From the IMG/VR virus record IMGVR_UViG_3300006920_000020, positions 1 to 42,025 of that record: a stretch of DNA of 42,025 nucleotides; one strand, written 5' to 3'. How positions within the stretch are numbered: the stretch's first letter is position 1; each line of letters starts with the position of its first letter. Below are positions 6,248-39,279 of the stretch, in pieces. Position numbers and translations under genes: made by a program. This DNA comes from a virus. Under the pieces are notes generated by a model, which saw nothing but the letters and a program-made list of their open reading frames with translations, did no database searches and was not told the origin of the DNA.

Positions 6248-9181
6248 ATGGACAATCCGATTAAATATTCTCAATTTATACAACCCGACCAGAGTGTATC
6301 TAATTTGATTGTACAACTTGAACAGTTACAAACTAAATACACCGAGTTACAAGCCAAAATCTCTGCCGATGCTGCCAAGATTGAGAAATCTTTAAAGGGT
6401 GTAAACAGTGCCACCGAAGCAGGTCGAGAAAGTACCCGAAAGTCTGCGACAGATGCGGACAAATTAGCAAAAGCAAACGCCGATTTAAAGAAGTCTCAAT
6501 CGGATGTCGCTAAAGAGTTGGCAGTACTGAAGGCAAAACAGCAGCAACAAAATAACATTAATAAACTTACTGCAAAAATTAACGCCTCGACTGAGGGGTC
6601 TTACAATAAACTATCTGCACAATATAGTCTGAATAAGATTAAATTAAACGCAATGAGTAAGGCCCAACGAGACGGGACGAAAGCAGGTAAAGCGTTGGAA
6701 AAAGAGTCTAAAGCTCTGTACGACGAAATGAAACGTTTACAAGAGGCCACGGGTAAAACCTCTTTAAACGTTGGTAATTATAAGGATTCTCTAAACGCCA
6801 TGCCTGGTCCTATGGGCGGGGTCGTGTCTGGTACTAAGGCAATGGGTAAACAGTTGTTAGTATTGGCAGCAAATCCGATTGTCGCAATAGTGGCCCTAAT
6901 CGCGGGACTGTTTATTCTATTGGTTAAGGCAATGAAAAGAAGTGAAGAGGGACAAGACCGTTTAAATAAAGTTATGGTCGTGGCGTCCTCTATTTTCGAC
7001 AACGTTATGGATGTCCTAACCTTAATCGGAATAGCTCTGTTTGATTCGTTACCGAAAGCGTTTCAAATGTTTGTGAATAATTTTAAAATATTTGTAAACG
7101 CTTTTAAGTCGGGTATTTTAAAAGTCCGTATCGCTTGGAATGAATTTACCAACGATGCCGAAGAGGCCGACAAGTTTAAAAAGGAACTGAAGGACTTACA
7201 AACTGAGACAAAAAATTTAGTCGCAGAACAAAAGAAACTCGGTAAACAAATCGTGGAGACTTTTAGCGAGTCAATAGAAAAAGCCAAAGACTTAGGAAAC
7301 GAGATCCAAAGGGACATCGTTGCCGCTAAAAAATTGGCAGACGCCCAAGCATCATACAACCGAGAAGAGAGACGAGTAATTGTCGCAAATGCAAAATTAA
7401 ATAAAGCGTCGGCAAAGGCCCGAGGGGATGCCGAACGTCTTAAACTTTTGGACGCTGAAAAAAGTATCGCAGTACTACAAAAAAGTTTTGATTTAGACGA
7501 AAAAGTTTTGGCAAACGAACTGAGTTTGGCAAAGGCCCGAGCGAGTATTTTAAAACAAACCTCTAATTTAGCAGTTGACGACATCGAAGCAAAGAAAGCC
7601 ATCGCAGAGGCGGAGGCTAACGTATTCGACGTAGAAACTAAGTTTAATAATCTTAGGAGACAAAGAGTCCGACGTATGAATATGTTACGTATGGAGGCTT
7701 TTAAACAGGAAAAGGAACGAATGAAAGCGTACGCCGCTTTAAATAAGTTCCAACAAAGTTCGATTATCTCTGCAAATAACGCCATACTTGCGTCTGACAG
7801 TGCGACATACGACGAAAAGAATAAAGCTCTATTATCTAACGCCCAACTTGCGACAACTGTTTTACAGGAAAACTCTGTTATCACTCTAAAAGAATTACAG
7901 AAACGTAAAGAATTACAGTTGATTTCTGACGAAGATTATGCACTACAAAAAAGGGTAATCGATGCAAAATTGGCGGACGATATTTTAAAAGTTAGTGATA
8001 AACTCCAAAAAGACCAAAATAAATTGGCGGAGGTTAAAAAGGCCGCAGAACAAAAAGCGAGAGACGAAAAATTTAAGTTAGCAGAAGAAACCATCGCACA
8101 GGAATACGACTTGGAAATGTCTCGAATTGATATTCTAAAAGCGACCGAAGCCGAAAAAACTAAATTACGTTTAGAGGCTGAGAGGGACAGAATCCAAAAA
8201 ATACTGGACCTAAATAAAAAAGCGGGTGGAGACTTAACAGCGTTGCAAATTGCAACAATGAAAAACACCATCGAGAAAATAAACCAAGAGATTAGCAAGG
8301 TACCAGATGGAGGGGATCTCTACTCTAAATTAGGATTGAATTTAAACGACGACCAAAAACAGGCCATCGAAGATAGTGCAACCCACGCACTCGAAATAAT
8401 CCAAACCGTTTTGGATGCGAAATTGGAAGCGGCAGACAGAGCGTTGGAAAAAGCAGAAGAGGAGACCGCGTCCGCAGAGTCTAAAGTACAACGAGAAATC
8501 GAGGCCCGAAATAATGGTTATGCAAATAATGTGATCGGAGCCCAACGAGAATTGGAGTTGGCAAAAAAGAAAGAGGCCGACCGATTAAAAGAGAAAAAGA
8601 AAGCTCAGAAAGCCCAAGCCATAATCGACACGGCAATGCAGATAAGTAGTTTAATTACTGCGACGGCCGAACTATGGAAATCAAACGCAGGTATTCCTAT
8701 TATTGGGGCAGGTCTTGCCACGGCGGCCACTGCCTTAATGTGGGGATCTTTCGCAGCGAGTAAGATAAAAGCGGCCACAGCAGCAAAAGAAAAATTTGGA
8801 GACGGTGGATTGGAGTTCCTAAGAGGTGGGAGCCACGCAAGCGGAAACGACATCCCTATCGGTACAACCGACAGCGGAAAACAAAGAACCGCAGAGGGTG
8901 GCGAAGCGATGGCGATTATAAACAGAAAAAACACCCGTAAATACAGAGGTGTATTACCTGGAATTATTAAGAGTCTTAATAGTGGTACTTTCGAGAAAGC
9001 CTATTCAAACAGTTTTGTCGATGAAAATAATAAACTTATTTTAGCAGAATCAAACTCCGATTTTTCTAAAATGGAAAACAGTTTGGAGGCTATCCGACAG
9101 AATGGCGAAAAACGAACTTATATCGACGGCGAAGGTCGTTTGGTAGAAGTTTATAAAAATATTAAACGAGTTTATGTATAA
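6248..9181 (+). CDS. tail tape measure protein
   Basis: 977 aa, the longest gene. Nearly all of the protein is long coiled coil rich in Ala, Lys, Glu and Gln (about 20-170, 290-480 and 560-790). A strongly hydrophobic segment at about 203-228 (containing NPIVAIVALIAGLFILLV) and a second apolar region near 800-840 are expected membrane-active parts used in DNA delivery. The C-terminal part has the Gly-rich FGDGGLEFLRGGSHASGND and EGGEAMAIINRKN motifs that close many Bacteroidetes tape measures. If about 1.5 angstrom per residue applies, the tail would be on the order of 140-150 nm. It overlaps the next gene by 8 bases. Confidence 0.9.
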   Translation: MDNPIKYSQFIQPDQSVSNLIVQLEQLQTKYTELQAKISADAAKIEKSLKGVNSATEAGRESTRKSATDADKLAKANADLKKSQSDVAKELAVLKAKQQQQNNINKLTAKINASTEGSYNKLSAQYSLNKIKLNAMSKAQRDGTKAGKALEKESKALYDEMKRLQEATGKTSLNVGNYKDSLNAMPGPMGGVVSGTKAMGKQLLVLAANPIVAIVALIAGLFILLVKAMKRSEEGQDRLNKVMVVASSIFDNVMDVLTLIGIALFDSLPKAFQMFVNNFKIFVNAFKSGILKVRIAWNEFTNDAEEADKFKKELKDLQTETKNLVAEQKKLGKQIVETFSESIEKAKDLGNEIQRDIVAAKKLADAQASYNREERRVIVANAKLNKASAKARGDAERLKLLDAEKSIAVLQKSFDLDEKVLANELSLAKARASILKQTSNLAVDDIEAKKAIAEAEANVFDVETKFNNLRRQRVRRMNMLRMEAFKQEKERMKAYAALNKFQQSSIISANNAILASDSATYDEKNKALLSNAQLATTVLQENSVITLKELQKRKELQLISDEDYALQKRVIDAKLADDILKVSDKLQKDQNKLAEVKKAAEQKARDEKFKLAEETIAQEYDLEMSRIDILKATEAEKTKLRLEAERDRIQKILDLNKKAGGDLTALQIATMKNTIEKINQEISKVPDGGDLYSKLGLNLNDDQKQAIEDSATHALEIIQTVLDAKLEAADRALEKAEEETASAESKVQREIEARNNGYANNVIGAQRELELAKKKEADRLKEKKKAQKAQAIIDTAMQISSLITATAELWKSNAGIPIIGAGLATAATALMWGSFAASKIKAATAAKEKFGDGGLEFLRGGSHASGNDIPIGTTDSGKQRTAEGGEAMAIINRKNTRKYRGVLPGIIKSLNSGTFEKAYSNSFVDENNKLILAESNSDFSKMENSLEAIRQNGEKRTYIDGEGRLVEVYKNIKRVYV

Positions 9182-11723
9182 ATTTATATTAAAACATAGA
9201 ATCGGATCGGGTAAAAATCTAATTGATCCATATAAAATTCGACAGGGATATTTACCCGATGCCGCGGGGTCGATTAGTGGGTACGACCATACGGATTTTA
9301 TAGAAGTTAGTACAGGAGTTTATACCTATTCAGAATCAGGATCTATCTTTTACCCAAATAGACACGCTACATTTTACGATTTTTGGGGACAAATAATCGA
9401 CGACGACGTAACCTTCAATACAGAATTGACAATCCCGAGCGGAGTTCGTACCATTAAATTAGCTTTTCAATCCGACGAAAATGGATTGTCGGCAGAAAAC
9501 GCCTGTTTTGCAAGACTTTCGGGAACTCCTTACGAACCATATTACACATCGAGAGAAGTAAATCCGATTTATAAATCTTTAAAATTGGAGTACGACAAGG
9601 CGGGGACGGGCGAATATTACAGACGAAAACTAAAGGGTAATTTAACCCTTCAGAAAACCGACTATAATTACATCGATACCCTTGCGTTTGATACTGAAAT
9701 GTTTTTGGATATTACCGACTCGGAAAACATAGTGGAAAAGTATATCGGTTATTTTTTCAAAACAGATTGTAAATTCAATCACGACGATTTAACTGTACAA
9801 GTTAGAACTAAAGTCCTGGACGATTACGAAAAAGTTTTGGGGGGTATGCAAAAAATATACAATATTTTAGAACTTACACCCGAACTCGAAACGGTGGAAA
9901 TGACTCGCCGACCTATTATACAAGTGTACATCCCTGGGGATAATGTTCTCACAAACATTTTAGGGGGTACTTATTGGGAGCAGGAATTGCAAGTCGATCC
10001 ACTATTCGACCATAACACTCTGGTAAATACTTATAAATTTTACAATACTCAGAATATACGTACTATTCCGTCAAGTGCTGCAACAGGATTAAGTACAGAT
10101 GTTACAGGGACATACGACGATAATCGTTTAAATGCAAACGGTCTTTATAGATTGATTGAGGAATCGGACACGATATATTTTAACTTTACTAGATACCGAT
10201 ATAAAATACAAAGAGTTTCGGACGACGTAATTTTATACCAAACAGGGTACACAAATTGGCGGGAAACAGGAGTTAACCTTTTACCATTTAACGGGGTAAA
10301 CGGAGAAACAGGGTCTTTCTATTTTGTAGAATACCGAATTTATGCAAGGTATTACACGGACATTCTGGACACGGGGACGGTATCGACTTACGGAATACCA
10401 AGCACAGACATAGTCGCAAATAATTCTAATTATAAAAGAGTTGTCGGGTACAATTTAGGTACGACGAGGTTTACGATTTATGACGAGTTTTTAACCACCC
10501 CAACAAAATACGGACGAGTTCCCGACGATGCCCCAGACGGTGGATTGTATTACAGAGGTTTACAATTACCTAGCTCGACGGGAATCGACAGAGAGCCCAC
10601 TCCTATAAGTTCGAGCAATTGGCGTGCCGTGTCTCTTTGGTTTTTGTCCGACGACTCGGTACAGTTTACGGAATTTGGGGACGGACTTAAATTTAATTTA
10701 CGGGATGCGTTTCCTCTGAGTTCGGTAATACAAAACCTATTGTCTGAAATGGGGGCGAATGTATCATTTTTAAAAGATACCGAACACAGCGAATTTTTTT
10801 ACGCGACGACAAACCCTTTAGGTGGTTTCTCTTATATGGGGACTTACAGTCTTTTTAATAATCCCGATTTTATCGGAAACCTCGATTATTTCATTACTCC
10901 TAAATCAAACGTCGTAAATGCGAACTACGACCAACCGGCCCGAAAAGCCGAGTTAAGTTTGCAACAAGTTTTTAAAATGTTAGCCGATATTTTCAAGGTA
11001 CATTGGCACATCGATAAAGGTCGTCTAAGATTGGAGCACATAAGCTGGTACCAAAAAGGAGGGACATACTCTTTTACTCCGATAGTAGGTACGGACTTGA
11101 CAACTTTACAAAATGTAAAGACGCATAAAAGCTGGGATTATTTACAAAATAATTTCGAGTATGATAAAGAGGCGATGGCCGAACGTTACGAATACGGCTG
11201 GATGGACGATGTTAGTCCAATTTTTGAAGGGAATCCGATAGACATAGTTAGTAATTTCACACAGGAGGGTAAAATCGAAGATTCCAGCAATGGTCGATTT
11301 ACAACAGATATTGACTTTATACAGTCAAACCCGCAGGAAATAAGTAAAGATGGTTTTGTATTGTTGGGTGCAGTTAACGAGTCCGGAGTCTATAAAATTC
11401 CGTACATGCGTTGGTACAATCCGAACTATAAACAATTTATGTTGCAAAACGGTTTTTTATCCTGGTCCTATATTCACGGAAAATACCACACTAGCGATTT
11501 ACCTTCAGACAATGTAATTATAAACGGACAGGAGGTAACTTTGTACAGTAACATCACAAAACAGAAAAAACAAAAAGTAAAATTCCCGTTAGTGGAGACT
11601 TTCAATCCTTACCAATTAATAAGGTCGGGAATCGGGAATGGTAAAATACAAAAATTAGCGGTCGATTTAGAAAGTTATATGGTTGACGGGGATTTAAAAC
11701 ACGATACAGATGGAAACACCTAA
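9174..11723 (+). CDS. distal tail / baseplate-like protein with lectin-like module
   Basis: 849 aa, start inside the end of the tape measure gene. Residues about 14-125 form a module beginning NLIDPYK and ending PYEPYYT, with Y-x-H-T-D-F-I-E-V-S and a FYDFWGQ turn; modules of this pattern recur in phage receptor-binding proteins, and two relatives occur in the protein encoded at 12585. The remainder (LKLEYD, RRKLKGNLTLQKTDY onward) looks like the distal tail/hub protein of Bacteroidetes siphophages; a segment near 600-680 (LFKMLADIFKVHWHIDKGRL-like) matches hub proteins in general style. It probably joins the tube to the fibre proteins and contacts the host surface. Confidence 0.65.
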   Translation: MYKFILKHRIGSGKNLIDPYKIRQGYLPDAAGSISGYDHTDFIEVSTGVYTYSESGSIFYPNRHATFYDFWGQIIDDDVTFNTELTIPSGVRTIKLAFQSDENGLSAENACFARLSGTPYEPYYTSREVNPIYKSLKLEYDKAGTGEYYRRKLKGNLTLQKTDYNYIDTLAFDTEMFLDITDSENIVEKYIGYFFKTDCKFNHDDLTVQVRTKVLDDYEKVLGGMQKIYNILELTPELETVEMTRRPIIQVYIPGDNVLTNILGGTYWEQELQVDPLFDHNTLVNTYKFYNTQNIRTIPSSAATGLSTDVTGTYDDNRLNANGLYRLIEESDTIYFNFTRYRYKIQRVSDDVILYQTGYTNWRETGVNLLPFNGVNGETGSFYFVEYRIYARYYTDILDTGTVSTYGIPSTDIVANNSNYKRVVGYNLGTTRFTIYDEFLTTPTKYGRVPDDAPDGGLYYRGLQLPSSTGIDREPTPISSSNWRAVSLWFLSDDSVQFTEFGDGLKFNLRDAFPLSSVIQNLLSEMGANVSFLKDTEHSEFFYATTNPLGGFSYMGTYSLFNNPDFIGNLDYFITPKSNVVNANYDQPARKAELSLQQVFKMLADIFKVHWHIDKGRLRLEHISWYQKGGTYSFTPIVGTDLTTLQNVKTHKSWDYLQNNFEYDKEAMAERYEYGWMDDVSPIFEGNPIDIVSNFTQEGKIEDSSNGRFTTDIDFIQSNPQEISKDGFVLLGAVNESGVYKIPYMRWYNPNYKQFMLQNGFLSWSYIHGKYHTSDLPSDNVIINGQEVTLYSNITKQKKQKVKFPLVETFNPYQLIRSGIGNGKIQKLAVDLESYMVDGDLKHDTDGNT

Positions 11724-16463: not shown

Positions 16464-16955
16464 ATGAAAAAACTAATTTTAGGCCTGTTAGTGGTCGTTT
16501 CTCTGTATTCGTGCAGTACAACTAAAAAACTACTGAAGGAGGACACCTCAGTAAAGAAAACCATTACAGAACGTAAACAGATAACACGTCCAGGCGATAC
16601 CATTACGATTGACATCCCAAATATTAGGTATAAAGATACTTTAATTACCCGCATCAATTATGAAAATAAAACGATTGCGAGGGTAACGTATGACGATAAA
16701 GGTAATCAAAAATTCGAGTGTCTAAGTGCTGAGATAGACGAAAAATTGGAACTAATACGAGAAGAGGTCCAGAACAATATTAAGGAGCAAAACGAAATTA
16801 AACGAGATTTTAACCCTCAATATTTTATCTATGCGTTAGGTTTTTTAGTATTGGTAGTCGTTATCGGTTTCGGATTTATGGGTTTTATGTTTATGAAATT
16901 ACAAAAACAATTACCAGGAATGATCGCAAATATTACTAAAGAGGTACTAAAGTAA
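16464..16955 (+). CDS. putative unimolecular spanin (u-spanin)
   Basis: 163 aa. The N-terminus is a lipoprotein signal with lipobox LYSC (Cys17), which would anchor the mature protein in the outer membrane; a helical/charged periplasmic part follows (KLELIREEVQNNIKEQNEIK), and residues about 121-143 form a single membrane segment near the C-terminus, with a basic end (KLQKQLPG). Outer-membrane lipid plus inner-membrane segment in one chain is the hallmark of u-spanins such as T1 gp11, which fuse the two membranes in the last step of lysis. It directly follows the endolysin. The TAA stop lies inside the first GTAAACAAT repeat of the array downstream. Confidence 0.8.
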   Translation: MKKLILGLLVVVSLYSCSTTKKLLKEDTSVKKTITERKQITRPGDTITIDIPNIRYKDTLITRINYENKTIARVTYDDKGNQKFECLSAEIDEKLELIREEVQNNIKEQNEIKRDFNPQYFIYALGFLVLVVVIGFGFMGFMFMKLQKQLPGMIANITKEVLK

Positions 16956-17140
16956 ACAATAATAAACAATTTTTGTTCCTCTGTAAACTCTTATGTTTAT
17001 TAACTTTAAAAGGTAAATAAACAAAGTAAACAATAAAATAGTAAATCTTTTTATATTTTAATATCTATATAATATAGGGTATATATTAGTAATTATATAC
17101 CCTTATAGAAAACATCGTTTATATTGTTTCTTTGTTTACC
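16952..17140. repeat. GTAAACA repeat array at the late/early border (left copy)
   Basis: Non-coding, AT-rich. GTAAACAAT occurs at 16952-16960 and 17026-17034, variants AATAAACAAT at 16961 and 17017, GTAAAC at 16983, and the reverse TGTTTAC at 17133-17139. A 10-bp stem with an 8-nt loop (AGGGTATATA paired with TATATACCCT) occupies 17076-17103 and may terminate late transcription. From 17017 to 17140 the array is collinear with 36630-36764 in the same orientation. The rest of the gap to 17300 is AT-rich with no further signal seen. Possible roles: replication origin, operator set, or packaging signal. Confidence 0.8.
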
Positions 17141-17771: not shown

Positions 17772-18179
17772 ATGAAAACGATAGCATTAGATAAAATCAT
17801 AGAAAAAAAGAAACTGGATAAAAAAGATTTAGCCCAAAGACTTTTCCCAGGTAACAAATACGCATCGTTATCATTAAATCGGGTAATTAAAGGCGACGGA
17901 TTTTTGGACTCTAACCAAATTAGTTTGTTATCTGAATTGACAAACATACCAATAAACGAACTTTACGAGAATAACGATTGGAGTTCCGAAAGTACAAACG
18001 GTGTAATCGTATTCACTTCAAAAGATTACAGGGCAGAGTTAAATATAAAATCAAACCTAACCAAAGTTTTTAAAAACGGATCACTTTTTCACGAGAGTAT
18101 TATACACTCTGGATCTGTTCCGTTATCTGAATACCTCGACAAATTAGCTGAGGTAATATCTGAACACACAAAAGAGTAA
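17772..18179 (+). CDS. HTH transcriptional regulator (Cro/CI-like)
   Basis: 135 aa. Residues 1-65 form an HTH: ALDKIIEKKKLDKKDLAQRL, then SLNRVIKGDGFLDSNQISLL and TNIPINELYEN, which follows the pattern of lambda-type/HTH_3 domains with the recognition helix around SLNRVIKG. The C-terminal half is a small beta domain (IVFTSKDYRAELNIKS). No peptidase motif of LexA/CI type was seen, so it is more Cro-like. It is early, with its own promoter, next to the GTAAACA array, which contains a palindromic version at 36452; it is one of two candidates (the other at 34847) to bind it. Confidence 0.7.
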   Translation: MKTIALDKIIEKKKLDKKDLAQRLFPGNKYASLSLNRVIKGDGFLDSNQISLLSELTNIPINELYENNDWSSESTNGVIVFTSKDYRAELNIKSNLTKVFKNGSLFHESIIHSGSVPLSEYLDKLAEVISEHTKE

Positions 18180-19924: not shown

Positions 19925-20458
19925 ATGTCAAGTACAAAAGTAATCACAGGAAAAGTCCGTTTTAGTTACGCTCACGTATTCGAGCCGAGTGCTATAAACG
20001 AAGGGGACGACAAAAAATATAGTGTATCTATATTGATCCCAAAAACTGACACGGCAACACTTGCCAAAATCAACAAGGCCGTAGAGGCTGCGAAACAAGA
20101 AGGGAAAGGAAAATGGAATGGTAAAATACCACCCGTTTTAAAATTACCTTTAAGAGACGGAGACGCGGAACGTCCAGACGACGAAGCGTACGAAGGTATG
20201 ATGTTTTTAAATGCAAGTTCTAAAAACAAGCCTGGTATTGTTGACGAAAACCGCGACGAGTTAATGTCGAAAGACGAGTTTTACTCTGGTTGTTGGGGAC
20301 GTGCTTCGGTAAACCTTTACGCTTTTAATGTTAGCGGAAACAAAGGTATCGCCGTAGGACTTAACAACTTACAGAAATTAGAGGACGGAGATCGTCTTTC
20401 TGGTGGAGGTGCATCGGCTGCCGAGGACTTCGGATCTGACGACGATTTGTTAGGATAA
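19925..20458 (+). CDS. ssDNA-binding protein, DUF2815/Enc34-like
   Basis: 177 aa. The N-terminus TGKVRFSYAHVFEPSAI and the KYSVSILIPKTDTATLAKI region match the DUF2815 family, whose member Enc34 binds ssDNA with an OB fold. The C-terminus is acidic (AAEDFGSDDDLLG), like the protein-interaction tail of SSB and T7 gp2.5, which contacts polymerase and nuclease. It follows DUF2800, a pairing widespread in phage replication modules. The 97-base gap upstream has TAGTTTAG (19880-19887), a possible weak -7 box. Confidence 0.85.
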   Translation: MSSTKVITGKVRFSYAHVFEPSAINEGDDKKYSVSILIPKTDTATLAKINKAVEAAKQEGKGKWNGKIPPVLKLPLRDGDAERPDDEAYEGMMFLNASSKNKPGIVDENRDELMSKDEFYSGCWGRASVNLYAFNVSGNKGIAVGLNNLQKLEDGDRLSGGGASAAEDFGSDDDLLG

Positions 20459-20543: not shown

Positions 20544-20629
20544 GGGGTGGTAGCTCAGTTGGTTAGGGCGGTTTTGTTGCAACATTAGAAACAGATTTCA
20601 GGTCGTAGGTTCGAGTCCTACCCGCTCCA
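20544..20629 (+). tRNA. tRNA-like element with alanine-type acceptor and aberrant anticodon arm
   Basis: The 7-bp acceptor GGGGTGG/CCGCTCC, D-arm GCTC/GGGC with an AGTTGGTTA loop and T-arm GTAGG/CCTAC around TTCGAGT are all canonical, with discriminator A. The acceptor has a G3-U70 wobble, the identity mark for alanyl-tRNA synthetase. The anticodon region is 12 nt too long: a GTTTT/GAAAC stem would enclose a 12-nt loop (GTTGCAACATTA, containing TGC) and leave a 12-nt variable arm. It is 86 nt instead of about 74. It may be a degenerate tRNA, one with a short insertion, or a tRNA mimic that belongs to the RNA downstream. CCA is not encoded. Confidence 0.75.
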
Positions 20630-20635
20630 CGAAAA

Positions 20636-21170
20636 GACCCAAAGTAAAATTTAATATTAATTTAATAATGTCGCTAGTTATACTTTAATATAAATTCTTT
20701 GGGTCTAAAATATAGAGTTTGGAATCTCTCGAAATTGGTTAAGGCCCACCAATAAAATAAAAATTACAGCCCCGTTTTAAAATTTAGTTGCACGGACTTA
20801 TATAAGCAAGCAAGGACGCACACTGGTAGGAGGCTTACTCCAATACTCTAATTATTTCGTAGTGCGGAAATTACGCCGTACATATTTACATTTTTGTTTA
20901 TAATGGTTAATCATAGACAGGTTTTTACAGAAGTTCTCAAACTATCTGAGTGAAGCGAGACACTATAATCGGAGCCGTGGAAACAAGTCGTAATATGCAT
21001 CATTTTTTGGAGTAGTTGTAAAACTCCTAACAAGGATTATCCGAGGCCTAAAACTACGGTAAACGGACAGGCAACCCCGACAGAGTTTCCCGTATAATTT
21101 TTGGGTGTAAGGGATGGTAATACTGATACTTAATGTCTATGTGAAGCACTGGACGCCCAATTTATTTTTA
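20636..21170 (+). ncRNA. probable large structured non-coding RNA
   Basis: About 535 bases between SSB and polymerase genes with no ORF of size and a higher GC than other intergenic DNA. Stems seen: GACCCAAAG/CTTTGGGTC at 20636/20697 continued by an imperfect AT-rich stem; ATTGGT/ACCAAT at 20734/20748; GGAG/CTCC at 20829/20838; GTGCGG/CCGTAC at 20862/20876; AGTG/CACT at 20949/20961; GGAGT/ACTCC at 21009/21023; and TTGGGTGT/ACGCCCAA at 21101/21153, followed by TTTATTTTT, which could end the transcript. Size, place in a phage and closeness to a tRNA recall the GOLLD and ROOL classes of large phage RNAs; I cannot match it to a class by eye. The upstream part 20461-20543 also has stems (ACGCTT/AAGCGT). 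Confidence 0.65.
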
Positions 21171-21195
21171 ATCTAATAATTGAAAAAATAAAAAT

Positions 21196-23187
21196 ATGGC
21201 TCATAAATTACACATCGACATCGAGACTTACAGCTCGGTCGATATTACCAAGGCCGGAGCTTATCGATATTGTGAGTCAATAGATTTTGAAATACTTATC
21301 CTTTGTTATGCTCACGACGACCAACCAATCCAAACAATAGACCTTTTACAAGGCGAAAAAATACCACAGGATTTTATCGATGCACTCTTAGACCCGACAG
21401 TCGAAAAACACGCACATAATGCAAATTTTGAACGTAACGGATTCCGTGCAATAGGTTACGACGTTCCGATCGATCAATGGTTTTGCTCTGCGATAAAAGC
21501 GGGATATTGTGGTTTACCTTTAAGTTTGGGCGGAGTTTCTGAGGCCTTGAAATTAGAGGAAAAGGGGAAATTAACGACGGGTAAAGCCTTAATACGATTT
21601 TTTTCATGCCCTATCAAACCGACTAAATCTAACGGGCAAAGAGTCCGAAATTTTCCAATACACGATCCCGAAAAATGGGCAGAGTATAAACGTTACTGTT
21701 TTAATGATGTCGAGGCAGAGAGAGAAATCGGCGTTATACTGAAGGACTACCAAATTACAGAATTTGAAAGACGTAACTATATTCTGGACCAGGAAATAAA
21801 CGACAGGGGTATTTTAATAGATGTCGATTTTGCCGAAAACGCTTACGCCTTAGACCAGATTAATTCCGAAAAGGTAGGCGAACAAATGAAAAAATTAACG
21901 GGTTTAGACAATCCGAACAGTCCGAAACAGTTAAAAGATTGGTTAGGAAACCAAATGCAAAAAGAAATTAAATCACTTGCGAAGGGCGAAATTCCAACAC
22001 TAATTGACGAAGCTGGACCAGGACTTGTCTCGGATGTCTTAAACCTTAGATCGAGAGCCTCTAAAACCTCGATTAAAAAATATGTCGCAATGCAAAATTG
22101 CGTTTGTTATGATGGTAGGGCTCACGGACTTTTCCAATTTTACGGAGCTAATAGGACAGGACGTTGGGCAGGACGTTTAATCCAATTACAAAATTTACCA
22201 CAAAACCACCTGGAGGAACTCGCAAAAGTTAGAGAGGTATTTAAAGACGGAGATTACGAAAACGTATCTATGTTATACCCCGAAGTTTCCTCGACACTTT
22301 CTCAGTTAATCCGTACCGCGTTTATTGCAAAACCCGGACATACTTTCGCCGTTGCCGATTTTAGTGCGATTGAGGCCCGAGTAATTGCCTGGTTAGCGAA
22401 TGAAACTTGGCGTATGGACGTATTTAATTCACACGGTAAAATATACGAGGCGTCGGCGTCTCAAATGTTCGGAATACCAATCGAGAAAATAGACAAGTCC
22501 ACCGAAGAGGGTTCGGCTTTAAGAAATAAAGGAAAAGTCGCAGAACTTGCCTTGGGGTACCAGGGGGCGTTGGGTGCACTTAAACAGATGGGCGGCGAGG
22601 CGATGGGTCTTTCAGATATTGAAATGGAAACCATCGTTAAAAAATGGCGAGGTAAAAGTCCTATGATTGTAAGACTTTGGAAAAGTGTCGAGGGTTACGC
22701 TTTACGAGCACTTAGAAACCCGCACAAAAAATACATTTTAGAACTGTTTAAAGGTTTAGAATTTTACTACGACGGTATTTCACTAACTATAAAATTACCT
22801 TCAGGCAGAAAATTATTTTACAATAATCCAAGGATCAAACCTAACAAATGGGGTCGAGACGCTATCCAATACAAAGGGACGCACCAAATGACGAAAAAAT
22901 GGGGGTGGATTGATTCTTACGGTGGTAAATTTACAGAGAACATCGTCCAGGCCATAGCGAGAGATTTACTTGCTTACTCGATGTTACGTTTAAATGAGGA
23001 AGGTTTTAATATCGTAATGCACGTACACGATGAAGCCGTGGCAGAAATTCCCGACGATGGTAACATCTTCAAAAAGAAAAACGAATTAAATCGAATGTGT
23101 AAAATTATGGGCGAGACAGTACCTTGGGCGAAAACCCTCCCTTTAGTAGCAGACGGATATATCACACCATTTTATAAAAAAGACTAA
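21196..23187 (+). CDS. DNA polymerase, family A, with 3'-5' exonuclease domain
   Basis: 663 aa, replicative polymerase of the phage. Exonuclease domain: D8 and E10 (HIDIETY), the HNANFE block near residue 75, and YCFNDVEAE near 175. Polymerase domain: motif A VADFSAIEAR with D388, motif B RNKGKVAELALGYQ with R443, K447 and Y455, and motif C HVHDEAV with H611 and D612. There is no 5'-3' exonuclease domain. The length is usual for phage PolA of the DUF2800-DUF2815-PolA-VirE module. The next gene starts 6 bases after the stop, indicating one operon. Leader lies directly after the structured RNA. Confidence 0.95.
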   Translation: MAHKLHIDIETYSSVDITKAGAYRYCESIDFEILILCYAHDDQPIQTIDLLQGEKIPQDFIDALLDPTVEKHAHNANFERNGFRAIGYDVPIDQWFCSAIKAGYCGLPLSLGGVSEALKLEEKGKLTTGKALIRFFSCPIKPTKSNGQRVRNFPIHDPEKWAEYKRYCFNDVEAEREIGVILKDYQITEFERRNYILDQEINDRGILIDVDFAENAYALDQINSEKVGEQMKKLTGLDNPNSPKQLKDWLGNQMQKEIKSLAKGEIPTLIDEAGPGLVSDVLNLRSRASKTSIKKYVAMQNCVCYDGRAHGLFQFYGANRTGRWAGRLIQLQNLPQNHLEELAKVREVFKDGDYENVSMLYPEVSSTLSQLIRTAFIAKPGHTFAVADFSAIEARVIAWLANETWRMDVFNSHGKIYEASASQMFGIPIEKIDKSTEEGSALRNKGKVAELALGYQGALGALKQMGGEAMGLSDIEMETIVKKWRGKSPMIVRLWKSVEGYALRALRNPHKKYILELFKGLEFYYDGISLTIKLPSGRKLFYNNPRIKPNKWGRDAIQYKGTHQMTKKWGWIDSYGGKFTENIVQAIARDLLAYSMLRLNEEGFNIVMHVHDEAVAEIPDDGNIFKKKNELNRMCKIMGETVPWAKTLPLVADGYITPFYKKD

Positions 23188-23193
23188 TCGAAA

Positions 23194-25572
23194 ATGCAAT
23201 ATAACGAAACGATACACATAGCGACAGGAATGTCGGCAAAGTCCAAAATTTGGAAAAATAAAAAAGTATTATGGTCTGAACTTGTTTCCAAAATATCCGA
23301 ACCACACCATACAAACGAAACTTTTAAAGAATATATGTCCTCAACAAAGGACGAACAATCTAAGATAAAAGATGTCGGGGGTTACGTTGGTGGATATTTG
23401 AGAAACGGTCGTCGTAAACCCGAAAACGTGGTACATCGTCAAATTATGACTTTGGACATCGATTTCGCGCATTTAGATTTTTGGGACGATTTCTGTTTAC
23501 AGTTTGATAACGCTGCAATATTACACGCCACACACAAACACTCAGACGAAAGCCCAAGATACAGACTAATAATGCCGCTATCGAGAGAGGCAACACCGGA
23601 CGAATACGTGGCCGTTTCTCGTAAGATTGCGGGGACGTTAGGTATTGAGCTATTCGATAATACTACATTCGAGACAAACCGTTTAATGTTTTGGCCGTCG
23701 TCTCCAAAAGATGTCGATTATTACTGCGAGGTACAGGACGGAATTTGGGTTGATGTGGACGCAGTTTTGGAAACTTATATCGATTGGAAGGATTCAAGTT
23801 TATGGCCTACCGCAGACAGAAAAATACAGGAGGTAAACGGATTTGTTGAAAAACAAGAAGATCCAGAGAATAAAAAAGGAATCGTCGGCGCATTTTGTAG
23901 AGCGTACACGGTTACTGAGGCAATCGCCGAATTTTTAAAAGATGCTTACACACCAACAACCGACGGACGATTCACATACGCCAAAGGGACAACAGCGTCA
24001 GGACTTATTCTCTACGACGATAAATTCGCATATTCGCACCACGGTACAGACCCATGCAGCGGTAAACTCTGCAACTCTTTTGATTTAGTACGTATCCATT
24101 TGTTTGGACATTTAGACCCCGACAACGAATACAGAAACGGAAATACTAAGAGTTTCAAGGCAATGGAGGAATTCGCCAGAGCCGACAAAGAAGTAAAACA
24201 AGTAATCGCAACCGAGAATTTTACAGAGTCGAAATATGATTTTGCCGAACCTTTAGAAAATTCGGAAGAGGACATCGACTGGATGGGCGAACTTGAAATC
24301 GACACCAAAGGGAAATATTTATCGAGTGCAAACAATATAAATCTAATTTTCGCCAACGATGTAAGATTAAAAGGACTTTTTAAACATAACGAGTTCGACG
24401 GTAAAAGATACGTTTTCGGCAATATTCCGTGGCGAAAAATAGCAAAACCCGAAGCGGTTAAAAATGTGGATTATTCAGGAGTGCGAAACTACATCGAAAG
24501 TATTTACGGCATTACTGGTAATTTAAAGATTGAAGATTCCATGGCCTTGGAATTTGAAAGAAACGTTTTCCATCCCGTTATGGACTATCTGGAGGGTGTA
24601 AAATGGGACGGTAAAAAAAGAGTCGATACATTGTTAATCGATTATTTAGGGGCTGACGACAACATTTATACACGAGAGGCAATCCGAAAAACTTTAGTTG
24701 GTGCGGTTGCTCGAATATTCCGACCAGGTTGTAAGTTCGACATGGTGTTAACCTTAATCGGGGACCAGGGGACAGGAAAAAGTACCATTGTAAAAAAACT
24801 CGGCGGGAAATGGTTTTCCGATACTTTTATGACGGTACACGGTAAAGAAGCATTGGAGCAGATACAAGGGGCTTGGATTATTGAAATGGCGGAACTTTCA
24901 GGATTACGAAAAGCGGATGTGGAATCGACCAAACATTTTATATCTAAACAAGAGGACACCTTCAGACCCGCATACGCTCGAACGTCTGAGACATATAAAA
25001 GACAATGTATTTTTGTCGGTACGTCAAACAAAAGGGATTTTTTAAACGATTCAACAGGAAATCGAAGATTTAATCCGGTAGATGTTGGGTCGTCAGAACA
25101 CGCAGACAAAAACGTATGGGACGATTTAACCGACTCAGAAATCGACAACATTTGGGCGGAAGCCGTTACAATGTTGAGAGAAGGGGAATCTCTTTTCCTA
25201 AGCAAAGAGGCGGACAGTATGGCAAAAGTAGAGCAGAAAAACCACAGTTCGACAGACGAACGATCGGGTATTATTTCGGAGTATTTGGATATTAAACTGC
25301 CAGAGAATTGGGACAAAAAAGACGTTTACCAAAGACGGGATTTTCTCGCAGACGAGAGCTTGGAAAAACAGGGTACAATTTTAAGGGATTACGTTTGTGT
25401 CGCTGAGATTTGGTGCGAGTGTTTAGGTAAAGAAAAAACCGAAATGGACAGATATAAAACTAGAGAGATAAACGAAATCTTGCGAAGTTTAGAAGACTGG
25501 GAACAATCCAAGTCAACAAAGAATTTTAAAAACTACGGAAAACAAAAGTATTATTCTCGAAAACTTTATTAG
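23194..25572 (+). CDS. primase-helicase, VirE (virulence-associated E) type
   Basis: 792 aa. N-terminal part (about 80-190) resembles an archaeo-eukaryotic-type primase: MTLDID gives the acidic pair, then ATHKHSDESPRYRLIMPL and NRLMFWPS. A Cys/His region follows (YSHHGTDPCSGKLCNSF). The helicase domain has Walker A GDQGTGKST (523-531), Walker B WIIEMAEL (near 565) and sensor-like VGTSNKRDFLNDSTGNRRF. It should make primers and unwind DNA for the polymerase encoded just upstream. The last 14 codons are copied downstream as part of a duplication scar (25661-25704). Confidence 0.9.
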   Translation: MQYNETIHIATGMSAKSKIWKNKKVLWSELVSKISEPHHTNETFKEYMSSTKDEQSKIKDVGGYVGGYLRNGRRKPENVVHRQIMTLDIDFAHLDFWDDFCLQFDNAAILHATHKHSDESPRYRLIMPLSREATPDEYVAVSRKIAGTLGIELFDNTTFETNRLMFWPSSPKDVDYYCEVQDGIWVDVDAVLETYIDWKDSSLWPTADRKIQEVNGFVEKQEDPENKKGIVGAFCRAYTVTEAIAEFLKDAYTPTTDGRFTYAKGTTASGLILYDDKFAYSHHGTDPCSGKLCNSFDLVRIHLFGHLDPDNEYRNGNTKSFKAMEEFARADKEVKQVIATENFTESKYDFAEPLENSEEDIDWMGELEIDTKGKYLSSANNINLIFANDVRLKGLFKHNEFDGKRYVFGNIPWRKIAKPEAVKNVDYSGVRNYIESIYGITGNLKIEDSMALEFERNVFHPVMDYLEGVKWDGKKRVDTLLIDYLGADDNIYTREAIRKTLVGAVARIFRPGCKFDMVLTLIGDQGTGKSTIVKKLGGKWFSDTFMTVHGKEALEQIQGAWIIEMAELSGLRKADVESTKHFISKQEDTFRPAYARTSETYKRQCIFVGTSNKRDFLNDSTGNRRFNPVDVGSSEHADKNVWDDLTDSEIDNIWAEAVTMLREGESLFLSKEADSMAKVEQKNHSSTDERSGIISEYLDIKLPENWDKKDVYQRRDFLADESLEKQGTILRDYVCVAEIWCECLGKEKTEMDRYKTREINEILRSLEDWEQSKSTKNFKNYGKQKYYSRKLY
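25528..25571 (+). repeat. 44-bp direct repeat, first copy (second at 25661-25704)
   Basis: The 3' end of the primase-helicase gene, from AAAAACTACGG to TATTA, is repeated exactly at 25661-25704. Between the copies lies a diverged copy of the start of the VRR-NUC gene (25625-25665 against 26124-26164, four differences in about 42 bases). This is the trace of a tandem duplication with a junction at TTAAAAAAC. Confidence 0.95.
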
Positions 25573-29041: not shown

Positions 29042-29104
29042 ACATATCAAAATAGGGAAGCCGAAAACTATAAAGAGTAGGTAATTTTATAAATATATAA
29101 ATAC

Positions 29105-31197: not shown

Positions 31198-31559
31198 TAA
31201 AAAGTAAGGTTTTAACGATTCCGATTTACGGAGACAAATACCGAATTTTACTTTACAATGATAATGCCGAAGTAAAAGAAAAATATTTCGGTTTAGATGT
31301 CAGAGATACGGACGGATTTATCCACACTCACAAAGGTAAAAACTATTTAGGTTTAAGAGTGTACAAACGAAAAGGGTATTTATATCCGACACCTGGGATA
31401 ATTGCCCACGAATGTAAACACGTTGTAAATAAGATTTTCGGAGATATAGGACAGGAACTCGATAGATTTAACGACGAGGCAGAATGTTACTTGTTAGGAT
31501 GGTTAGTAAACAGAGTCCACGAATTTACGGACAAAAATAAAACAGATTTTAAAATATGA
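31194..31559 (+). CDS. phage-type zinc metallopeptidase-like protein (HExxH)
   Basis: 121 aa. Zinc motif IIAHECKHVVN gives HExxH; about 25 residues later the conserved NDEAECYLLGWLV supplies a likely third ligand Glu. Stand-alone proteins of this form are common in tailed phages next to DNA-metabolism genes. The short length and lack of signal peptide point to a cytoplasmic role. The target is unknown; cutting a host factor or a defence protein is possible. It overlaps the next gene by 4 bases (ATGA). Confidence 0.75.
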   Translation: MIKSKVLTIPIYGDKYRILLYNDNAEVKEKYFGLDVRDTDGFIHTHKGKNYLGLRVYKRKGYLYPTPGIIAHECKHVVNKIFGDIGQELDRFNDEAECYLLGWLVNRVHEFTDKNKTDFKI

Positions 31560-32017
31560 ATGTATTAAGTTTATTCGACGGAATGTCGTGCGGACAAATT
31601 GCCTTGGATAAATTAGGTATAAAAGTGGACAATTATTTCGCGTGTGAAATCGATAAAAGTGCGATGCAGGTAGCCCAAAAGAATTTCCCTAATACGGTAC
31701 AACTTGGAAGCGTTACGGATTTACTAGACATCGATTTATTATTGCCTAAAATTGATTTGGTTATCGGAGGCAGTCCGTGCCAAAGTTTCAGTTTTGCGGG
31801 TAAACGTAAAGGGATGGCCACGACTTGTAATATCGAGGTTTTATCTCTGGATCAATATTTGGAACTGAAGGACGAAAATTTCGTTTTCGAGGGACAATCG
31901 TATTTGTTTTGGGAATACCTCAGAATTTTACAGGAGGTTAGGGACGTAAATCCAGACGTTAAATTCCTATTGGAAAATGTAAATATGTCTAAAAAAATGG
32001 AAATCGGTAATTTCTAA
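31556..32017 (+). CDS. cytosine-C5 DNA methyltransferase, N-terminal part (frame broken at 31991-31997)
   Basis: 153 codons before a stop created by a frameshift. AdoMet motif I LSLFDGMSCGQIALD, motif IV GGSPCQSFSFAG with catalytic C75, and motif VI LLENV are intact. After MSKK the frame runs into MEIGNF and stops. Dropping one A from the A7 run restores the reading frame WKSVISNNLETEPVFINS, which is what the family has at this point, and continues to 32918. The whole gene would encode about 453 aa. It overlaps the metallopeptidase gene by 4 bases. The break may be true mutation, transcript slippage in A7, or a sequencing slip. Confidence 0.9.
   Translation: MNVLSLFDGMSCGQIALDKLGIKVDNYFACEIDKSAMQVAQKNFPNTVQLGSVTDLLDIDLLLPKIDLVIGGSPCQSFSFAGKRKGMATTCNIEVLSLDQYLELKDENFVFEGQSYLFWEYLRILQEVRDVNPDVKFLLENVNMSKKMEIGNF
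31991..31997 (+). other. A7 frameshift site in the C5 methyltransferase
   Basis: The run TCT-AAAAAAA-TGG needs six A, not seven, to keep the methyltransferase open. Frame from 31998 (TGG AAA TCG) is in phase with the downstream 32112 frame and carries the expected motif VIII RPRLYWSNI before that start. Homopolymer runs like this are prone to polymerase slippage. Confidence 0.9.
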
Positions 32018-32111: not shown

Positions 32112-32918
32112 GTGCCCGAGAACACCTCAACGATCCAGGATATAATTATCGAACCTTCAGACCCTAAATTGTTGTTAGAAAACAATACGTATTGGGATTT
32201 AACTATCAAAAACGGGGAATTTAGAATCGACGAACTCTTAAAAAATTATAGAAACGTTGACGAATTGAGTAACGATATAAAATTGATCTCAGTAATTACG
32301 GGCGACACCCCGTCGAATATATCTCGACAAGGCGATCGAGTTTACAGTATTTCAGGTAAAAGTCCGTGTTTAACTACGTCCCAAAAAATAAAGGTCGATT
32401 GCGGCAGCGACGACGTTTATAAATGGCGTTTTCTATCGGCCGCAGAACACGAAAGACTGCAAACGGTACCAGACGGATATACTATTGGAGTGAGTGAGGC
32501 ACAACGATACAGAATGTTAGGGAATGGGTACTCAGACCGAGACAAGGCCCGAACGTTATTAGTTAGCGATTCCCGACCTCTGAGTACTCCTGTAAAAATG
32601 CTACATAGATATTTTAATAAAGGTTTTACCACTCTTATTTTTAAGTCTGAGGAACATTATATCGAGGTAAAAAAACACTTCGATTTACACTTTAAAGATT
32701 TATCCGCAAAAGAAATCGACCAAGTATGTATCGATGTTGATTTGTCGATATACGAAGGTCTTAGATATATGGTAAAATCTGAACGTGAGGCCTGCCAAAC
32801 AGTACCAATCGGCTACACCAACAACCTAACAGAAAACGAAGCCGCCGACCTTTTAGGGGACGGGTGGACGGTCGATGTAATTGCACACATTTTTAAAAAT
32901 ATGAAGTATGAAAAGTAA
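32112..32918 (+). CDS. cytosine-C5 DNA methyltransferase, C-terminal part
   Basis: 268 aa from the first ATG of the restored frame; the true coding frame extends upstream to 31998. It contains the target-recognition region, motif IX-X (QTVPDGYT at 32460 and MLGNGYSD at 32514), then about 85 residues, and a second block of the same kind (QTVPIGYT at 32796 and LLGDGWTVDVIAHIF). The second block carries the form of the end seen in ordinary enzymes, so the first is followed by an inserted segment. Translation of this part alone would give no enzyme because C75 and the AdoMet site are upstream. Confidence 0.85.
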   Translation: MPENTSTIQDIIIEPSDPKLLLENNTYWDLTIKNGEFRIDELLKNYRNVDELSNDIKLISVITGDTPSNISRQGDRVYSISGKSPCLTTSQKIKVDCGSDDVYKWRFLSAAEHERLQTVPDGYTIGVSEAQRYRMLGNGYSDRDKARTLLVSDSRPLSTPVKMLHRYFNKGFTTLIFKSEEHYIEVKKHFDLHFKDLSAKEIDQVCIDVDLSIYEGLRYMVKSEREACQTVPIGYTNNLTENEAADLLGDGWTVDVIAHIFKNMKYEK

Positions 32919-36404: not shown

Positions 36405-36437
36405 CATATCTAAAATCCCACTAGCGGACGCATAAAC

Positions 36438-36890
36438 AAAGGTAAACAGTCGTAAACAATGATTGTTTACCTTTATTAGTCTGATACATAAGGGTTTACA
36501 GGCGGTAAACAATGTAAACAATAAAAAGGGTAAACTATACGGAGGTAATAAAGTAATAAACAACGTAAACAATAATAAACAATGATTGTTTACTTCAGAA
36601 AGTCAATGTTTACGGGGTCTTAGGTACTAAATAAACAATGTAAACAATAAAATAGTATATCTTTTTATATTATTAAATATATAGAAAATACCCATAAATG
36701 CACGCGATTTAGTATATTATATACTGTGACGAAATTTATCGTTTATATTGTTTCTTTGTTTACAGGGGGTTTAATTGTCTGGTTTATAGGTGGTTACGGT
36801 GGAACAATAAAATATCGGTCTTTTTGATTGTTTACATATTCGGGTTAATTGGCTGATTGTCTGATAGTTGGACGATAAAATATTGTTTAC
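36438..36890. repeat. GTAAACA/TGTTTAC repeat array at the early/late border (right copy)
   Basis: Non-coding, with about a dozen copies of GTAAACA: forward at 36442, 36452, 36505, 36514, 36565 and 36640, and reverse (TGTTTAC) at 36464, 36587, 36607, 36757, 36829 and 36884. Two perfect palindromes are GTAAACAATGATTGTTTAC (36452-36470) and TAAACAATGATTGTTTA (36576-36592). A further 11-bp inverted pair is AAAGGTAAACA/TGTTTACCTTT (36438/36464). An unrelated palindrome AGTATATTATATACT is at 36711-36725. Region 36630-36764 is collinear with 17017-17140. The gap from 36405 to the terminase gene has no other coding sequence that I can see. Confidence 0.9.
36452..36470. promoter_or_regulatory. perfect palindrome, candidate operator
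   Basis: GTAAACAATGATTGTTTAC is a 19-base perfect inverted repeat with a central G; a 17-base version sits 124 bases later (36576-36592). Dyads of this length are typical binding sites for dimeric HTH regulators, and the phage encodes two HTH proteins (17772 and 34847). Confidence 0.7.
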
Positions 36891-36914
36891 GCGTCTCGTT
36901 TTGTATTTATTTTG

Positions 36915-36922
36915 TAGATTTG
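36915..36922 (+). promoter_or_regulatory. late promoter -7 box before the terminase gene
   Basis: TAGATTTG is an exact TAnnTTTG box 20 bases before the terminase ATG. The -33 element is not clear (TTTTG at 36899 is too close); a reverse GTAAACA copy ends at 36890, so a protein bound there could act at this promoter. Confidence 0.55.
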
Positions 36923-36941
36923 TTAAAAATTATTTTTAGAA

Positions 36942-37448
36942 ATGTACAGCGAAGAGGATAAAAAGATAATGAAGTCCAGAATTGTCGAAGAGATCGAGAA
37001 AAAAAGATCTCTGCACGATATTTTGGAAAATGATATTTTGGGCGAGTTTCCTAACGCGTCAACAGTTTACGAGTGGTTAAATGAAAATTCTAATTACTAC
37101 GATGCCGAGTTTTCCAATAACTACGAGCGTGCGAGAGACATCCGAGCCGACAAAATATTCGAGGAAATGTTACAGATTGCCGATACGCCCGTCCTAGGCG
37201 AGACGGTTAAATCCGGATTGTTAGGGGACGAAACTACGACGGGCGATATGTTGCAGCATCGACGTTTACAAGTGGACACTCGTAAATGGATTCTCGGTCG
37301 AATGAAGCCAAAGAAATACGGGGACAAGATCGAAACCACAATTACAGGAGGGGACAAACCCGTACAAACAGTCGATTATACAAAACTATCTCCGGAGTTC
37401 CTGGAGGAACTAGCAAAACAAGCCGATGTCAATAAACCTAAATCCTAA
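36942..37448 (+). CDS. terminase small subunit
   Basis: 168 aa. N-terminal HTH-like region (SLHDILENDILGEFPNASTV and YEWLNENSNYYDAEF) for DNA recognition, followed by ERARDIRADKIFEEMLQIAD, and the block LQVDTRKWILGRMKPKKYGD, which is typical of Sf6 gp1-like small terminases. It recognises the packaging site and loads the large subunit. It overlaps the large-subunit gene by 23 bases. The repeat array directly upstream is a candidate binding site. Confidence 0.9.
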   Translation: MYSEEDKKIMKSRIVEEIEKKRSLHDILENDILGEFPNASTVYEWLNENSNYYDAEFSNNYERARDIRADKIFEEMLQIADTPVLGETVKSGLLGDETTTGDMLQHRRLQVDTRKWILGRMKPKKYGDKIETTITGGDKPVQTVDYTKLSPEFLEELAKQADVNKPKS

Positions 37449-39219: not shown

Positions 39220-39247
39220 CAAATATAAAAATAATTTTTAACATAAA
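39220..39247 (-). promoter_or_regulatory. leftward promoter for the mini-operon
   Basis: On the minus strand TATATTTG (CAAATATA at 39220-39227) is an exact TAnnTTTG box 23 bases before the ATG at 39197. A T-rich sequence is at the -33 distance. Upstream lies the palindrome AAAATAAATTTATTTT (39251-39266), related to the element before the promoters at 28982 and 34525. Confidence 0.65.
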
Positions 39248-39279
39248 CTAAAAATAAATTTATTTTGTTTTTAGCGAGG

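Follow-up and report, generated by a model that had tools for sequence, protein, structure and literature searches.

Paired convergent iteron arrays at two operon junctions of a Bacteroidota phage genome as a probable replication origin of the phage-inducible chromosomal island type

What function is served by a dense array of short repeats that fills the non-coding gap between the early genes and the terminase genes of a phage? We addressed this question for IMG/VR virus record IMGVR_UViG_3300006920_000020, analyzed over all of its 42,025 nucleotides (hereafter the window), in which copies of GTAAACA crowd the gap ahead of terS, the gene for the terminase small subunit (site B). The first-pass annotation of this DNA, made from the sequence alone, had listed a replication origin, an operator cluster and a packaging (pac) site as candidate functions. 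We assign a probability of about 0.78 to the reading that the site B array is one of two copies of the phage replication origin, of the type found in phage-inducible chromosomal islands (PICIs) and Staphylococcus aureus pathogenicity islands (SaPIs), with the phage protein VapE as the predicted initiator.

Between positions 36442 and 36890, a span of 449 bp, GTAAACA occurs exactly 12 times, six times per strand (plus-strand starts at 36442, 36452, 36505, 36514, 36565 and 36640; minus-strand starts at 36464, 36587, 36607, 36757, 36829 and 36884), in agreement with the roughly twelve copies in both orientations reported initially. The whole window contains 27 copies compared to 9.9 expected, and the chance count in the 541-base region, determined from 2000 dinucleotide-preserving shuffles, averaged 0.28 and never exceeded 4. 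As a motif, GTAAACA is slightly too narrow, and TAAACAA, with 14 copies in the site B region and 35 in the window, is the better core. The two perfect dyads noted in the first pass are present as well, and the stretch ahead of the terminase is indeed non-coding, with no open reading frame (ORF) of at least 60 amino acids on either strand between 36314 and 36941, followed by a terS of the Sf6 type (Table 1).

The internal structure of the array, with its pairs, AT-rich core and inverted pairs, had been overlooked, as had the existence of a second copy. A search of the site B region against the window returned a shorter version at 16949–17139 (site A; 74% identity, E = 1.5 × 10−25), and alignment of the two sites revealed a common unit that consists of a direct repeat pair, an AT-rich core of 80–95 bp and an inverted pair. 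AT content reaches 79% in the core of site B and 85% in that of site A, versus 62% for the genome. Of all 100-bp stretches in the window, the one starting at 16998 has the lowest stability and the one starting at 36625 the sixth lowest. The sites lie 19.6 kb apart, and each head-to-tail gene block begins with one of them: site A separates the lysis genes from the early genes, and site B separates the early genes from terS. Relative to vapE, site A is located ~6 kb upstream and site B ~11 kb downstream. No DnaA box (TTATCCACA) was found in or near either site, the sole exact match being at 31318. Between the last iteron of site B and terS lies a conserved TTTTGTAnnTTTGTT element (36910–36930) similar to the Bacteroidota −7 promoter motif, and a stretch with 91% identity is found on the minus strand at 39226–39259.

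The layout is kept in relatives of the phage, the nearest isolate being Croceibacter phage P2559Y (81% DNA identity over 83% of a 6-kb query). Scanning contigs of more distant relatives for the density of A[AC]ACAA, with no location assumed, revealed peaks at both junctions in the window, P2559Y, G001, G002, G004 and G009 (labels beginning with G or L are ours), and Elizabethkingia phage TCUEAP1 carries a TTGAGAC array at a junction. While the layout persists, the iteron motif drifts: to GAAACAA in G004 and G008, TAAACAA in G003 and G009, AAACCAT in L124, L128 and L143, and GGAACAA together with ACACAA in G005. Both sites match within a genome, as illustrated by GAAACAA in G004 and AAACCAT in L128 and L143, and across 12 genomes the similarity of site motifs was 0.81 within genomes versus 0.52 between genomes (p = 1.6 × 10−4). 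Such shared drift would follow from recognition of both sites by one protein, although gene conversion from one site to the other could also raise the within-genome similarity. The distance from site to site ranges from ~12 kb in L119 and 14 kb in L102 to 23 kb in G005, with both sites remaining at the junctions. We dropped the idea that the two sites necessarily lie opposite each other on the circle, because the distance between them changes with the size of the early region.

We next considered VapE relatives from viral contigs and bacterial genomes, the latter providing 80 loci. A motif-blind scan recorded any 7-mer with at least two copies per strand within 400 bp, and adjacency to vapE was evaluated wherever 400 nt or more of downstream sequence was available (74 loci), using the top two-strand cluster of at least five copies. 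Measured from the vapE stop codon, the start of this cluster falls within −70 to +300 in 56 of these loci; in 51, the vapE-adjacent cluster comprises at least six copies and exceeds the shuffles, and only three loci have their top cluster of at least six copies away from the vapE stop. The vapE-adjacent motifs are diverse (GTAAACA, GTGAACA, GTTACAA, GTCAACA, GGATACA, CGGCAAC and others); the 13 copies of ACAACCG downstream of vapE in L223 illustrate the extent of drift from GTAAACA. The geometry is constant, with same-strand spacing peaking at 9 bp and a median convergent gap of 97.5 bp, in which the AT fraction is 0.72 versus 0.56 for the locus (higher in 51 of 52 loci). Cores also belong to the least stable 100-bp segments in their respective genomes. 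Three isolated phages share this arrangement, the array beginning 22, 7 and 40 nt past the end of the vapE match in phiFL4A, F4 and LWP01, respectively.

In these vapE-adjacent relatives, the array is located inside the replication module, between vapE and the VRR-NUC gene. The corresponding vapE–VRR-NUC gap measures −21 to 1386 nt in the clade with junction arrays, versus a median of ~300 nt in vapE-adjacent loci. In the VapE tree, 32 of 32 junction cases fall into one clade of 60 members (support 0.963) that includes zero vapE-adjacent cases; 28 of the 60 gave no array in the available sequence. This topology agrees with one relocation of the origin, followed or accompanied by its duplication.

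The link to PICIs is provided by VapE itself. The VapE profile finds 7pds_A by sequence (E = 5 × 10−87), and the predicted structure (mean predicted local distance difference test score 85.9; 35 sequences) aligns to 7PDS ("The structure of PriRep1 with dsDNA") over 430 residues (361–792; root-mean-square deviation (rmsd) 4.5, 35% identity) at Z = 36.6, spanning the whole helicase and the C-terminal part of the protein. The model also matches the SaPI5 primase-helicase 7OM0 (Z = 14.0), and residues 4–204 match the archaeo-eukaryotic primase (AEP) domain 6ZP9 (Z = 9.8, 151 residues, rmsd 4.1). Because of this kinship with PriRep1, VapE is preferred as the predicted binder, although another conserved protein of the module (VRR-NUC, a SNF2-type helicase, the single-stranded DNA-binding protein (SSB) or DUF2800) could in principle take this role. 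VapE has 471 matches in phage records at E ≤ 1 × 10−40; in many phages it is annotated as "virulence-associated", although the nearest relative with a solved structure initiates SaPI replication.

We infer that VapE, an AEP-type primase fused to a self-loading helicase of the D5/SF3 type with a C-terminal DNA-binding region, binds the 7–9 bp iterons on both sides of the 80–95 bp core as two facing multimers. The AT-rich core would then melt and VapE helicases would load, so that replication would start there and be continued by the phage's own family A DNA polymerase (PolA) and SSB. With one copy per early/late operon junction (~17.0 kb and 36.4–36.9 kb), both copies would be expected to fire.

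Table 1 Features of the two array sites and of associated genes in the window
Feature	Position	Strand	Remarks
Site A: second occurrence of the unit, in shorter form, gap between lysis genes and early operon; proposed origin copy 2	16949–17139		Second density peak in blind scan
Site A, left iteron pair, ATAAACAAAGTAAACAAT	17017–17034	+	
Site A, AT-rich core, 81 bp, 85% AT	17035–17115		
Site A, right inverted iterons, CGTTTATATTGTTTCTTTGTTTAC	17116–17139	−	
XRE-like small protein, early operon just past site A; regulator candidate in this clade	17772–18179	+	
Single-stranded DNA-binding protein	19925–20458	+	PF10991
Family A DNA polymerase (PolA), same replication module	21196–23187	+	
vapE: AEP primase + D5/SF3-type helicase; proposed iteron-binding initiator	23194–25572	+	PF05272, E = 9.5 × 10−82
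Site B: whole iteron array, gap between early genes and terS; proposed origin copy 1	36432–36890		12 GTAAACA, 14 TAAACAA; same position in P2559Y, L006, L008, L009
Perfect dyad GTAAACAAT-G-ATTGTTTAC, left cluster	36452–36470		Relatives also have a dyad ending the left cluster
Direct iteron pair, 9-bp spacing, GTAAACAATGTAAACA	36505–36520	+	
Second perfect dyad TAAACAAT-G-ATTGTTTA	36576–36592		
Left iteron pair flanking core, ATAAACAATGTAAACAAT	36631–36648	+	
AT-rich core, 95 bp, 79% AT; proposed DNA unwinding element	36649–36743		
Right inverted iteron pair flanking core, ATATTGTTTCTTTGTTTACA	36745–36764	−	
Outer inverted iteron	36829–36835	−	
Outer inverted iteron, 52 bp upstream of terS	36884–36890	−	
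Terminase small subunit (terS), Sf6 type, adjoins site B	36942–37448	+	PF20901, E = 3.7 × 10−27

PICI origins lie directly 3′ of rep and comprise an AT-rich region with one set of iterons on either side, and a pri-rep-ori segment drives plasmid replication (PMC6092414); according to the authors, this organization is found in no other known bacterial replicon (Fillol-Salom 2018, PMC6092414). Sites A and B share with PICIs and SaPIs the convergent sets of short iterons around an AT-rich region, as well as a phage-encoded initiator of the primase-helicase kind, VapE being similar to PriRep1. Unlike in PICIs, the proposed window origin does not lie immediately 3′ of the initiator gene, the location seen in the 56 bacterial-genome vapE loci described above, and it is present in two copies at operon junctions. 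The replicon also differs from a PICI in being a complete tailed phage with its own small and large terminase subunits, portal and capsid (the latter two matching P2559Y) and PolA. By this comparison, the window origin would work like a PICI origin, in a phage that is not a PICI, and the vapE-adjacent arrays in phages and prophages argue against confinement of the layout to PICIs.

Related initiators provide further points of comparison. As summarized in PMC7581432, SaPI Rep binds repeats just downstream of its own gene through its C-terminal domain, and so does Cch2 of the staphylococcal cassette chromosome mec (SCCmec). The putative SCCmec cch2 origin resembles the arrangement proposed here in that a D5-type helicase binds, through its C-terminal domain, short direct repeats in the non-coding DNA next to its gene (PMC7581432). 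It differs in that only three AAGTG iterons are described for it, compared to approximately 12 copies here, arranged as convergent sets around a core and present in two places.

Phages also offer examples of paired sites. The alpha primase-helicase of satellite phage P4 reads the same short iteron at two separate sites, ori and crr, which differ in layout from the sites described here; the L192 motif, GTGAACA, presumably resembles the P4 iteron. Lytic phage SPP1 carries two copies of initiator-bound repeats, oriL and oriR, in one genome, but uses the initiator gp38 and host helicase loading.

Several observations weigh against a VapE-dependent origin at these sites. The arrays in the window clade are not adjacent to vapE, and a comparison of VapE segments with motif variation singled out none as the likely recognition region (r = 0.28 for all loci, 0.05 for genome loci alone). 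Upstream of the XRE gene, 30 of the 49 loci with enough upstream sequence passed a strict cluster test, which P2559Y failed despite an array that is obvious on inspection; L094, L114, L115, L151–L153 and L155 have no array in this position. G003 possesses site B but no array at site A, and no 7-mer cluster was found within the 34.5 kb read of BF486P2. GC skew, proposed in the first pass as a check, is positive almost throughout the window with no switch at site A or B, and speaks neither for nor against an origin.

The alternative that survives best overlaps with the favored origin: the arrays may be VapE-read origins and, at the same time, operators or enhancers for the adjoining operon, and hence be kept at junctions. 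Consistent with a dual role, the length between the sites varies (~12–23 kb) while both stay at junctions, and the VapE branches with junction arrays form the single clade without a vapE-adjacent case (support 0.963). However, intergenic junctions may be the sole places in which a non-coding element of 300–450 bp is tolerated, and we consider this combination possible but tentative.

We regard it as unlikely that the arrays act purely as an operator cluster, whereby the XRE-like protein 17772 or the helix-turn-helix (HTH) protein 34847 would bind the dyads and iterons and switch the early and late operons. The position of both sites where operons start, the XRE gene that follows site A in relatives, the suitability of the dyads for a dimeric regulator, and the conserved −7-like TTTTGTAnnTTTGTT element at 36910, directly past the last iteron, would all suit such a switch. 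Yet an XRE match was found in only one of the 80 bacterial-genome vapE loci (L164, itself of the junction type) compared to 56 of 74 with vapE-adjacent arrays, the latter sit in the vapE/VRR-NUC replication module, and an operator does not require a fixed gap of ~97 bp with a low-stability core. Neither of these two candidate regulators tracks the array: 34847 was rejected as the binder for want of a tblastn match in more distant relatives, and 17772 was rejected as a general binder because it has no match in vapE-adjacent loci. An alignment of the XRE-like proteins contained no segment of sufficient conservation to serve as a query, and a search with the single protein returned two relatives only.

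A pac site recognized by the Sf6-type small subunit is highly improbable. The start of the P2559Y record within the same region, which may be an arbitrary choice, would agree with packaging from here, as would the position of site B 52 bp upstream of terS; the first-pass annotation had taken adjacency to this gene as support. Against packaging, a second copy of the unit is present at the lysis/early junction, 19.6 kb from site B, and arrays of this build adjoin vapE, not terS, in most vapE loci examined; in G003, moreover, the array (8928–9400) is separated from the downstream terL by 2.7 kb, a greater distance than in the window. On the grounds of the distant second copy and the association with vapE in relatives, we rejected pac as the main function. 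Of the functions listed at the outset, the origin is well supported and pac disfavored, while the dyads may still serve a regulator. Finally, an origin of the array by chance, from AT-rich or low-complexity DNA, or a simple partition function has a negligible probability. The region is AT-rich, but the shuffles reached at most 4 copies compared to 12 observed, the layout is conserved, the motif drift is shared by the two sites, and the geometry is fixed across unrelated motifs.

Further features of the window are recorded here in their own right. The genome is likely circular; the contig ends (1–386 and 41840–42025) lie in a coding 18-bp tandem repeat, and their 86-bp overlap corresponds to that repeat and may be due to repeat collapse. 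Just upstream of polA, a tRNA-like gene at 20544–20630, also found in P2559Y and G001, has an odd anticodon loop (four-base "gcaa" according to ARAGORN). It is followed by ~550 nt of non-coding sequence (20640–21195), conserved in P2559Y, with a long predicted stem in which compensating pairs are kept. This stretch has no Rfam match and is possibly a large structured RNA, of which GOLLD and ROOL are examples known to occur beside tRNAs in phages. A match to the Rfam DUF805b RNA (RF02914) is located at 29051–29083. A cytosine methyltransferase-like gene lies in two pieces (31556–32017 and 32112–32918) and is apparently broken in this contig; the corresponding place in P2559Y holds a single ORF of ~1 kb annotated as a DNA methyltransferase.

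Together, these data suggest that the window most likely carries an origin whose type has so far been reported solely from small satellites parasitizing phages. We found no earlier description of VapE origins in phages in the literature, which is weak evidence of absence as many journals were not covered. Our best reading is that PICI-type origins occur in complete phages and that a single clade of Bacteroidota phages has relocated the origin to operon junctions and duplicated it. More speculatively, paired origins that head each rightward operon of this clade and are kept alike under one initiator might start replication forks in step with transcription and double as early/late control, with the same origin type serving a large share of VapE phages. 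A motif-blind rule (convergent repeats around an AT-rich gap of ~97 bp, just past vapE or at junctions) predicts an origin in most loci examined and covers dozens of different iteron sequences, so that origin recognition by self-loading helicases becomes testable across natural variants, and it suggests that PICIs and VapE phages share a replicon.
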